Assembly: GCA_021802645.1 (NCBI GenBank)
Contig: JAJZRO010000013.1
Coordinates: forward strand, 5,941-68,598
Reading direction: 5' to 3'
Origin: Deltaproteobacteria bacterium
GTDB lineage: Bacteria; Desulfobacterota; Desulfobulbia; Desulfobulbales; Desulfurivibrionaceae
DNA: 62,658 nucleotides
The position numbers and the translations under genes are program-made. Numbering within the stretch: position 1 is the first letter of the stretch; each line of letters starts with the position of its first letter. Of the stretch, positions 1,633 to 4,071 are shown in pieces. A model generated the notes under the pieces. The model was not told the origin of the DNA and did not search any database. It worked only from the letters and a program-made list of their open reading frames with translations.

Positions 1633-2040
1633 TTAAGGGGCGATCGGCAGGCGGACCATGGCCCCGCTGGTCGGGTCGTTGTACACCAATTCGCCGCCGA
1701 TTTGGCCGCTCTGCACCGCCTTGCTGAGCGTCATGGTAATGACCATGGTGCCAGGGCCGCTTCCCGTGATGAGGCATTTGACCTCGCCCGGGCGCTGGCT
1801 GAATTTTTTGACCGGCGGGGTGGTGCTGACCACGGTGACGTCCGGCGGCAGCGACTGAGTGATGATGAGGGTGGCCGGCGGTGGGGCGCCGATCGTCACC
1901 TCCACTTCGATCCGGGTGCCGCTGGCAACGAGGTAGCGGCCGCCGACCAGTCCTTTGGCCAGGATCGGGGTCGCGATCCCCCAGCAGCACAGGAACACCA
2001 AGGCGGCCAGGAGGGTGGGGAAGCGGGATGTACGTTTCAT
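1633..2040 (-). CDS. Secreted beta-domain protein paired with the upstream XRE regulator
   Basis: Predicted 135-aa protein with a signal peptide (KR, then a hydrophobic stretch ending PILA) and no recognised catalytic motif. The ATG at 2040 is preferred over one nine codons upstream because an AAGGAGG Shine-Dalgarno sits 8 nt before it. The mature part resembles the periplasmic beta domain of the XRE protein encoded just upstream: both carry a pattern like LI-x-[TE]-x-[LV]-[AP]-P followed by a [ST]V-I/V stretch and PP. The two genes are 23 nt apart on one strand, so they are probably co-transcribed. Role unknown; it may be a ligand, partner or decoy for the membrane regulator. Confidence 0.7.
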   Translation of the reverse strand: MKRTSRFPTLLAALVFLCCWGIATPILAKGLVGGRYLVASGTRIEVEVTIGAPPPATLIITQSLPPDVTVVSTTPPVKKFSQRPGEVKCLITGSGPGTMVITMTLSKAVQSGQIGGELVYNDPTSGAMVRLPIAP

Positions 2041-2063: not shown

Positions 2064-3014
2064 TCACGGAAGCACCACCAACTGGTGGCGGGTGGCGTCC
2101 CAGCGGTAGCCGTGGCCGGACCAGATATCTTCAAGTTTTGATGCCTCCAGGTTGAGTCCGGCCGCGCCGAAGGTATCGTACACCGCCAGGATCTCCTCGT
2201 CGTCGATCTTGAAGTCGCGGTTGCGATCGGCCCAGTGGTACGGGGCGACCGGGACGTTGTCCGCCCCGCCGATGGGGGTCATTACCCCGCTTCTGCCGCG
2301 CATGGTAATCTCGCCGTGGAAGGGTAGCTGCGGCACCAGGGGGTGGTGCGGCTTGATAACGGCCAGATAGAAGAGGGTGGTCGGCCCTTCGGGCTTGGTG
2401 ATCCATCGGAAGGTGCGGGTCGCGGTATTGACCGCGCTGAAGGGGGGAACACTGGCGATGACCGAGCATTCCGGGGCCACGGTCTCGCTGACGATCAGGG
2501 GGATGGCCTCGTTGGTGGCGGGCGTGACCGTGATGGCCACCGGGAAGGGGAGGCCGACGGGTGCCTGTGGCGGCAGGATGCGGGTGGCGGTCACCCGTAA
2601 GGGTTTCTGGTTATCGAACCACCAGGCCAGGAAGACCGCGAGGATGGTGATGGCCAGGAAGATGGCCAGCCCGATGCCGAGCCGTCGATTGCGGGGCAGC
2701 GGCGGGGGAGGTAGGGGCTGTTCCGGCGGGAGTTCCAGCGTTTCGACCGGTGGGGCGGCAGGGGTGGCGTGGTCGAGTATCTCTTCCAGCGCCACGCCGA
2801 GCGCCTCGGCGAGTTTTTTCGCATTCTCCGGCTTGATCGAGGGATAGCGGCGGTGTTCCCAGCGCGAGATGGTATCCGTGGTTACGCCGACCACCGTGGC
2901 GACGTAGAGTTGGGTCAACCCTTTTTCTTCCCGCAACCGGCGGATGGTCTCGCCATTGATTTTGGGGGCGATCACGTTGTTCAGGGTGGTTATGGTGCGC
3001 GGTTCGTCGGCCAT
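2064..3014 (-). CDS. Membrane-spanning XRE-family regulator with periplasmic EF-hand loop
   Basis: A 316-aa protein from the ATG at 3014. Residues 20-80 form an XRE helix-turn-helix (RRLREEKGLTQ, then ISRWEHRRYP). A proline-rich linker (84-107) leads to RNRR and one transmembrane helix (111-133), placing the HTH in the cytoplasm. Residues 138-240 look like a beta-sandwich related to the neighbouring secreted protein. Residues 263-274 (DRNRDFKIDDEE) match a canonical EF-hand calcium loop at positions 1, 3, 5, 7, 9 and 12. The architecture suggests a one-component transmembrane sensor. The start is uncertain because no strong ribosome site is seen; the frame stays open to 3227 but that part lacks protein-like character. 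Confidence 0.75.
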   Translation of the reverse strand: MADEPRTITTLNNVIAPKINGETIRRLREEKGLTQLYVATVVGVTTDTISRWEHRRYPSIKPENAKKLAEALGVALEEILDHATPAAPPVETLELPPEQPLPPPPLPRNRRLGIGLAIFLAITILAVFLAWWFDNQKPLRVTATRILPPQAPVGLPFPVAITVTPATNEAIPLIVSETVAPECSVIASVPPFSAVNTATRTFRWITKPEGPTTLFYLAVIKPHHPLVPQLPFHGEITMRGRSGVMTPIGGADNVPVAPYHWADRNRDFKIDDEEILAVYDTFGAAGLNLEASKLEDIWSGHGYRWDATRHQLVVLP

Positions 3015-3053: not shown

Positions 3054-3155
3054 GATCGTTACCCCGAACAGAAGGATCATTGCGGGGGCAACAGCGGTTT
3101 TTGTGTCGAAAGGTACCATGGGTACAGGGTATCCGAAAAAAACAGCCCGCCGCAC

Positions 3156-3208
3156 CCGATGTCGGCCGATATCCGACCCGACATCGGGTCCATATCGACC
3201 GATGTCGG
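3156..3208. promoter_or_regulatory. Operator array: phased CCGAYRTCGG near-palindromes
   Basis: Three copies of CCGATGTCGG or its reverse complement CCGACATCGG lie at 3156-3165, 3178-3187 and 3199-3208, spaced 22 and 21 bp (two helical turns). A degenerate copy CCGATATCCG is at 3166-3175, and 3190-3199 holds a partial match. The last copy sits where a -35 element would be expected for the plus-strand gene at 3306. The neighbouring transmembrane XRE protein is the obvious candidate binder, but this is inferred from position only. Confidence 0.65.
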
Positions 3209-3225
3209 CTATTTTTTGGCGCGGC

Positions 3226-3305
3226 AATGCCGTACCGTAGGGTCAGAAAGACGGCATCGAAAACCGGCCGTCGAAAAAAAATGTAGATCAAAAAACGGAG
3301 GAATC
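3226..3305 (+). promoter_or_regulatory. Structured leader, copy 1
   Basis: This stretch is closely similar to 3644-3720 and lies before a paralogous gene. Both start AATGCCGTACCGTAGGG and hold a hairpin with an 11-nt loop ending GAAAACCG. Here the stem is GACGGC (3250-3255) with GCCGTC (3267-3272); the second copy changes both partners of one pair (A-T to G-C). An alternative stem ATGCCGT/ACGGCAT (3227-3233 with 3251-3257) is possible only in this copy. It ends with a GGAGG ribosome site at 3297. It does not match any riboswitch core I know. Confidence 0.55.
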
Positions 3306-3527
3306 ATGATGAACAAGAAGATGATGGTTTGGGCCTTGGCTATGGGTTGTCTTATTGGTGCCACCGGCGTGGCGTTGGCCGGCGCGGGCGAGAAGCCTGC
3401 AACCGAGGCGAGCAAGCCTGCCGTGACGGCGCCCGCCAAACCGGAGGCCACGACCACGGCCCCCAAGACCGCCGAAACGGCCACCCCGGTCAAGCACAAG
3501 GCAAAGAAGAAGATCGAAGGCTGCTAA
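3306..3527 (+). CDS. Small secreted Ala/Pro/Lys-rich protein ending KKIEGC (paralogue 1)
   Basis: A 73-aa product starting MMNKKMMVW with a clear signal peptide (cleavage near ALA-GA). The mature part is low complexity (Ala, Thr, Pro, Lys, Glu) and ends in a basic tail HKAKKKIEGC with a C-terminal cysteine. Two adjacent ATGs (3306, 3309) follow GGAGG; the second has the better spacing. The start region, leader and C-terminal tail are shared with the gene at 3721, so the pair arose by duplication. Function unknown; a terminal cysteine after a lysine-rich tail could bind metal or form a disulfide-linked dimer. Confidence 0.7.
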   Translation: MMNKKMMVWALAMGCLIGATGVALAGAGEKPATEASKPAVTAPAKPEATTTAPKTAETATPVKHKAKKKIEGC

Positions 3528-3637: not shown

Positions 3638-3646
3638 TGATATAAT
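3638..3646 (+). promoter_or_regulatory. Extended -10 promoter before paralogue 2
   Basis: TGATATAAT is a perfect extended -10 (TG at 3638-3639, TATAAT 3641-3646), placing the transcript start near 3653 inside the shared leader. The equivalent position of copy 1 reads GGCAAT, a poor -10, so the two copies are likely driven differently. Confidence 0.6.
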
Positions 3647-3720
3647 GCCGTACCGTAGGGCAAAAAAGGGCGGCTTGGAAAACCGGCCGCCGGAAAGCGT
3701 ACAAAAAACACGGAGGAATC
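3644..3720 (+). promoter_or_regulatory. Structured leader, copy 2
   Basis: This is the second copy of the leader at 3226-3305. The hairpin stem is GGCGGC (3669-3674) with GCCGCC (3686-3691) around the loop TTGGAAAACCG. Relative to copy 1 the second stem pair changed from A-T to G-C on both sides, which keeps pairing. The GGAGG ribosome site lies just downstream, and the copy 1 operator array is absent upstream. Confidence 0.55.
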
Positions 3721-4071
3721 ATGATGAACAAGAAGATGATGGTCTGGGCATTGGCGTTGGGTTGTCTTGTCACCGTCACCGGCGTGGCTGGGGCGGCCTC
3801 CAAGAAGGCGGCTTCGGCACCGGAGTGCAAGGTGGAGTCGGTGGAGGGTAGCAAGGTGGTACTGGACTGCGCTGCAACCGGAAAGAATCTTGTGGCCGGT
3901 GCCACGGTGACGCTCAAAGTCAAGGCGGCTGCCGCTGCCAAGCCTGCTGTTGCCCCGGCCAAACCGGCGGCCGAAGCGACCCCGCCGGCGGCCACAACCC
4001 CGGCCACCCCGGCCGAACCTGCTACTCCGGCCAAACCCGTGCACAAGAAGAAAAAGATCGAGGGTTGTTGA
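3721..4071 (+). CDS. Small secreted Ala/Pro/Lys-rich protein ending KKIEGC (paralogue 2)
   Basis: A 116-aa product with the same start and signal peptide as the gene at 3306 (MMNKKMMVWALA). It carries an inserted globular stretch with two cysteines (PECKVESVEG to VVLDCAATGK) before an Ala/Pro-rich linker and the tail HKKKKIEGC. Ribosome site GGAGG precedes the two ATGs. It is the last gene before a strong terminator. The paralogue lacks the two-cysteine segment, so the conserved parts are the export signal and the basic cysteine-ended tail. Function unknown. Confidence 0.7.
   Translation: MMNKKMMVWALALGCLVTVTGVAGAASKKAASAPECKVESVEGSKVVLDCAATGKNLVAGATVTLKVKAAAAAKPAVAPAKPAAEATPPAATTPATPAEPATPAKPVHKKKKIEGC

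Follow-up and report, generated by a model that had tools for sequence, protein, structure and literature searches.

P0001, encoded on the minus strand of the 62,658-nucleotide stretch of DNA analyzed here (the window), is probably a membrane-anchored activator of periplasmic cytochrome and envelope genes that, judging from comparisons of sequence and gene order, would act together with the secreted protein P0002 as a co-component system.

2064..3014, minus strand: coding sequence of the transmembrane XRE regulator P0001, 316 aa, with full-length homologues in 43/58 relatives

The open reading frame at 2064-3014 is real and lies on the minus strand; the first-pass annotation had left its strand unstated. 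The gene was present as a single copy in its own 2.55 Mb genome, and its frame was unbroken in the first-aligned relatives (n = 20; approximately 37 to 47% identity), which excludes the misassigned frame in the C-terminal half that had been raised as a possibility. The calcium-ligand positions were filled in all 70 aligned relatives, and thus both the frame and the EF-hand loop that it encodes are real. An Rfam scan of the window detected tRNAs only. A search of genome contigs returned 0 matches with the single protein as the query and 153 relatives with an alignment as the query. Full-length relatives were found in 43 of 58 genomes of the order Desulfobulbales and, in a phylum-wide sample of 395 genomes, in 36 (approximately 9%), so that a search for the same helix-turn-helix (HTH), transmembrane and EF-hand architecture elsewhere, as had been proposed, was successful at both levels. 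The regulator was present in at least 80 named loci, mostly from Desulfobulbaceae, Desulfurivibrionaceae, Desulfocapsaceae and Desulfopila, and no regulator of this kind was found described in the open-access literature. Among its cultured carriers are Desulfopila aestuarii DSM 18488, Desulfosediminicola flagellatus and Desulfobulbus alkaliphilus.

The domain architecture of P0001 was examined with Pfam, hydropathy analysis and an AlphaFold2 model built from an alignment of 70 relatives (mean pLDDT 88.7).

2778..2954, minus strand: XRE/Cro-CI helix-turn-helix, residues 21-79 (PF01381, model helices, structural matches)
2613..2687, minus strand: single transmembrane helix, residues 110-134 (hydropathy, AlphaFold2 helix)
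2241..2600, minus strand: periplasmic Ig-like beta domain, residues 139-258 (AlphaFold2 strands and fold comparison)
2193..2228, minus strand: EF-hand calcium loop DRNRDFKIDDEE, residues 263-274 (ligand positions kept in 70/70 relatives)
2073..2201, minus strand: exiting helix, second helix and beta hairpin, residues 272-314 (invariant W298 and Y303)

Residues 24-79 matched HTH_3 (PF01381; E = 4e-14, 52.7 bits against a cut-off of 23), placing P0001 among the XRE/Cro-CI proteins above the Pfam cut-off, and the model helices spanned residues 21-79, in agreement with the XRE HTH originally placed at residues 20-80. Pfam detected nothing in P0001 outside residues 24-79; the families above cut-off were of the XRE-type HTH only, and an OmpR-type winged helix (Trans_reg_C) was not found. 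The structural matches of this domain were P22 C2, SinR and the N-terminal domain of CapH, and the residues of its recognition helix were near invariant among relatives. The order of parts in P0001, with an N-terminal XRE-like HTH, one transmembrane helix and a periplasmic beta domain, is also that of RodZ, and a structural role in the cell-shape machinery was considered on this account. However, the HTH of P0001 is HTH_3 rather than HTH_25, no RodZ C-terminal family was matched in Pfam, and a separate HTH_25 gene is located elsewhere in the genome (at C24; E = 2.5e-21). Since the HTH family differs and the HTH_25 gene lies elsewhere, P0001 is not RodZ; it also adds an EF-hand module, a conserved operator and a regulon. 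Given the near invariance of the recognition helix and the co-occurring operator described below, a RodZ-like function is very improbable.

A 19-residue window with hydropathy above 1.6 was detected in 69 of 70 relatives, with lysine or arginine on the N-terminal, HTH-bearing side, and the positive residues 108-111 of P0001 indicated an N-in topology. Together with the AlphaFold2 helix at residues 110-134, these results bear out the single transmembrane helix with a basic cytoplasmic flank that had been noticed in the sequence. With the basic residues on the HTH side of the helix, the C-terminal part of the protein should therefore be periplasmic. Residues 85-105, between the HTH and the transmembrane helix, were modelled as a disordered proline-rich linker (pLDDT <50). 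A long linker in this position would suit regulated proteolysis, by which the HTH would be freed from the membrane before acting, but neither a protease site nor a protease gene nearby was conserved, and we regard this route as improbable.

The structure prediction also upheld the beta domain of the original reading, giving strands that span residues 141-256 in an Ig-like fold. Integrin, complement, pilin and cohesin domains resembled this domain about equally, and a cohesin-dockerin interpretation was dropped. Of the 70 relatives, 36 have a lone cysteine at residue 183, within this domain (window region 2466), which might form an intermolecular disulfide.

The loop DRNRDFKIDDEE follows the 12-residue EF-hand pattern, with ligands at positions 1, 3, 5, 9 and 12 and a hydrophobic residue at position 8. 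Position 1 was D, position 3 was N or D, position 8 was I, L or V, position 9 was D and position 12 was E in 70/70 relatives, and position 5 was D in 68/70 and N in the other 2. The pattern appeared in 10 of 20,000 shuffles of P0001. When a profile of the C-terminal module was compared with the PDB, almost only EF-hand proteins were recovered, with weak E-values; EF-hand models matched up to 25 of 65 members, and the window's own copy alone was without a score. Thus, the canonical loop of the first-pass annotation stood, its ligand positions being filled in 70/70 relatives. A full EF-hand did not: P0001 carries a single loop rather than a paired helix-loop-helix, and in the model residues 257-271 are coil, with an exiting helix at 272-285 and no entering helix. 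No fold match was obtained for the isolated C-terminal module, a result that is not evidence of a new fold.

From its sequence, the loop likely binds Ca2+. The conservation of every ligand position and the matches to EF-hand profiles would also fit a one-component calcium sensor in which periplasmic Ca2+ is itself the signal. However, a single, unvarying loop beside the invariant residues W261, W298 and Y303 looks structural, the conserved partner P0002 suggests another input, and calcium-related genes were not seen among the targets; we therefore consider a calcium sensor unlikely. Because the loop is so invariant and is single, calcium is no less likely to have a structural role here than a sensing one.

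The gene directly downstream of the regulator encodes the candidate partner.

1633..2040, minus strand: coding sequence of the secreted Ig/DUF11-like partner P0002, 135 aa, directly downstream of P0001

In 59 of 80 regulator loci the regulator gene was followed on its own strand, after a median gap of 5 nt, by a gene for a secreted protein of approximately 135 aa; a membrane-bound transcription factor and an adjoining periplasmic partner gene are thus joined in one operon in these loci, which is the arrangement of a co-component system. A profile built solely from the partner family matched the Ig domain of regulator proteins in 63 stretches (best E = 1.8e-9) and gave 0 matches against reversed sequences; by sequence, the partner and the sensor domain are therefore homologs. 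The only Pfam lead for P0002 was a weak match to DUF11 (E = 0.028), and P0002, with its kinship to the regulator's own Ig domain, is not a VtrC-like lipocalin partner. In many loci (window 2064-2067 and relatives), the regulator stop codon overlapped or nearly abutted the start of the partner open reading frame, which suggests translational coupling. Gene adjacency and the shared fold point to an interaction between the Ig domain and P0002, and the two proteins probably form a co-component system like ToxR/ToxS.

The region between the regulator and the divergent genes contained a repeated motif.

3155..3209, no strand assigned: tandem operator array, with CCGAYRTCGG at 3156-3165, 3178-3187 and 3199-3208 (R1 model match, E = 1.7e-6)
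3199..3206, plus strand: proximal half-site CCGATGTC; the -10 box of the divergent gene follows 26 nt downstream
3233..3238, plus strand: TACCGT, the -10 element predicted for the divergent promoter (TANNNT spacing in 38 promoters)

The k-mers common to the regions upstream of the regulator reduced to GACATCGG/CCGATGTC, giving GAYRTCGG as the half-site of the operator. The motif was concentrated upstream of the regulator, at 28-fold its density in other parts of these loci, and apart from the array in the window the 2.55 Mb genome had no paired copies. Exact half-sites were detected in 27 of 45 loci with a divergent c3-type cytochrome or EGC-ending gene, leaving about 18 of the 45 without one, and in 2 of 27 loci that lacked such a gene (p = 6e-6). 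Because the half-sites track these divergent genes, the array is assigned to the divergent promoter. Other families repeated the arrangement, with the operator flanked by the regulator and by a divergent three-haem cytochrome.

Exact operator pairs were uninformative as a genome-wide test, since most pairs in trans in regulator-less genomes lay within coding sequence, and a 66-nt sequence model, built from 15 divergent promoters, was therefore run on 58 relatives. At E<0.05 this model identified 25 distinct places (2 of them training loci of the model), of which 23 were upstream of the regulator, c3-type cytochromes, EGC-tailed genes or glycine-zipper proteins; the remaining 2 were inside coding sequence. 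Promoters of c3-type cytochromes and glycine-zipper proteins were also found in trans, beyond the training set; these cytochromes matched PF02085, and the glycine-zipper proteins matched PF13488/PF05433. A match at E<0.1 was present in 27 of 43 genomes with the regulator and in 0 of 15 without it (p = 1e-5, relatedness ignored). Across the phylum, a match at E<=0.02 was present in 15 of 36 regulator genomes and in 11 of 359 others (p approximately 5e-11, relatedness ignored). As the compared genomes are related, these p-values overstate independence. Some genomes with the regulator (for example, G001, G013, G030 and G037) yielded no operator with the 66-nt model. From this co-occurrence we infer that the HTH of P0001 binds the operator motif.

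The spacing of the promoter elements was nearly fixed: counted from the proximal half-site, TANNNT began at exactly 26 nt in 29 promoters and at 25 to 27 nt in the full set of 38. The operator model excludes the -10 box, and this spacing is thus independent of the choice of sites. In the -35 slot, the operator promoters had CTCTAT or GGCTAT, and TTGACA was absent. A half-site centered near -42, combined with a missing -35 element, corresponds to class II activator placement. The site from which lambda CI activates PRM also lies near -42. Lambda CI and P22 C2 resemble P0001 in their HTH fold and in having an operator array near divergent promoters; unlike P0001, they are soluble and have no periplasmic sensor. 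Most classical XRE proteins, like P22 C2, act as repressors, and with the array so close to the promoter, bound P0001 could instead block the divergent promoters until released by a periplasmic signal. However, the array ends at approximately -39 and leaves the -10 element and the downstream region free, the -35 slot makes the promoter look activator dependent, and the distance from half-site to -10 element hardly varies. Repression is accordingly an unlikely account, and activation by P0001, a sign of regulation read from promoter geometry only, is preferred.

Two small secreted proteins are encoded divergently from the regulator in the window.

3306..3527, plus strand: first divergent target P0003, a secreted 73-aa protein with a C-terminal KKKIEGC tail, in a position homologous to c3 cytochrome/ExtJ genes in relatives
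3721..4071, plus strand: second divergent gene P0004, an ExtJ-like secreted 116-aa protein with a KKKKIEGC tail (NF040942 ExtJ match)

P0004 matched NF040942 (ExtJ) with E = 1.8e-7, below the family cut-off, and divergent small secreted proteins in several regulator loci belong to the ExtJ family. In Geobacter, ExtJ is part of the ext cluster extHIJKLMNOPQS (PMC5877670), whereas here it is a candidate target adjoining the regulator. P0003 and P0004 have promoter-proximal and leader regions (3226-3328 and 3644-3743) that are an 83% identical duplication, and the copy upstream of P0004 is without an operator. A C-terminal KKx(I/V)EGC tail was also observed on otherwise unrelated secreted proteins, namely ExtJ-like proteins, c3-type cytochromes and a BON-domain lipoprotein, as well as on two copies of the Ig/DUF11-like partner (window 3306-3527 and 3721-4071; loci L046, L059, L066, L100, L105, L145, L154 and L155). 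The tail resembles a tag for sorting or modification. A signal specific to the regulator was considered, since regulator targets carry the tail, but many regulator-less genomes among the 395 have it too, and we assert no such tie.

Sequence support for the operator sites and the target genes is strong. Collectively, these data are consistent with a mechanism in which the cytoplasmic XRE head of P0001 would bind the tandem GAYRTCGG array and, from the proximal half-site of sigma70-type promoters that have no -35 box, would recruit RNA polymerase, as the geometry suggests. The targets, divergent or remote, would be small periplasmic multihaem cytochromes, ExtJ-like proteins and glycine-zipper envelope proteins, as indicated by the positions of the operators. 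The Ig-like domain, with one bound Ca2+ stabilizing or gating it, may sense the state of the periplasm together with P0002, the pair working as a ToxR/ToxS-type co-component system. The earlier proposal of a one-component sensor was thus retained in part. Conservation and structure prediction give good support to a membrane-bound XRE regulator whose periplasmic domain is sensor-like and whose EF-hand loop is genuine, and the conserved operator and target set support the proposed direction of signalling from the periplasm to the cytoplasmic HTH. The first-pass annotation had not noticed the secreted protein encoded with the regulator, nor the operator array or the divergent targets, and these make a two-protein co-component system likelier than a pure one-component sensor.

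ToxR/ToxS and VtrA/VtrC are co-component systems with a membrane-tethered transcription factor, and their regulators are presumed activators (Kinch et al. 2022, PMC9214523). Like them, P0001 has one transmembrane helix, a periplasmic domain and an adjoining, often overlapping gene for a small periplasmic partner. In contrast, P0001 has an XRE head where theirs is a winged helix, its sensor is Ig-like with an EF-hand loop, its partner is a secreted Ig/DUF11-like protein homologous to the sensor domain rather than lipocalin-like, and the system is found in Desulfobacterota rather than in enteric bacteria. Since the HTH class and the partner fold differ, the P0001 system is not a member of the ToxR/ToxS-VtrA/VtrC group, and by analogy it would work in the same way. 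CadC, a one-component membrane-integrated activator, likewise joins a cytoplasmic HTH, a single transmembrane helix and a periplasmic sensor in one chain, but its HTH class and periplasmic fold are others, and it has no such partner.

The control of periplasmic cytochrome amounts in sulfate-reducing and related bacteria is poorly known. The present analysis provides a named regulator conserved in the phylum, an operator with fixed promoter geometry, predicted targets and a candidate sensor partner. More tentatively, across Desulfobacterota P0001 and its Ig-like secreted paralogue may act as a Ca2+-dependent pair that monitors the periplasm, such as how loaded or how mature its own multihaem cytochrome clients are, and sets how strongly periplasmic cytochromes and glycine-zipper envelope proteins are expressed. 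The P0001 system also shows that the winged-helix proteins of enteric bacteria are not the only membrane-anchored transcription factors to be encoded together with a periplasmic partner.
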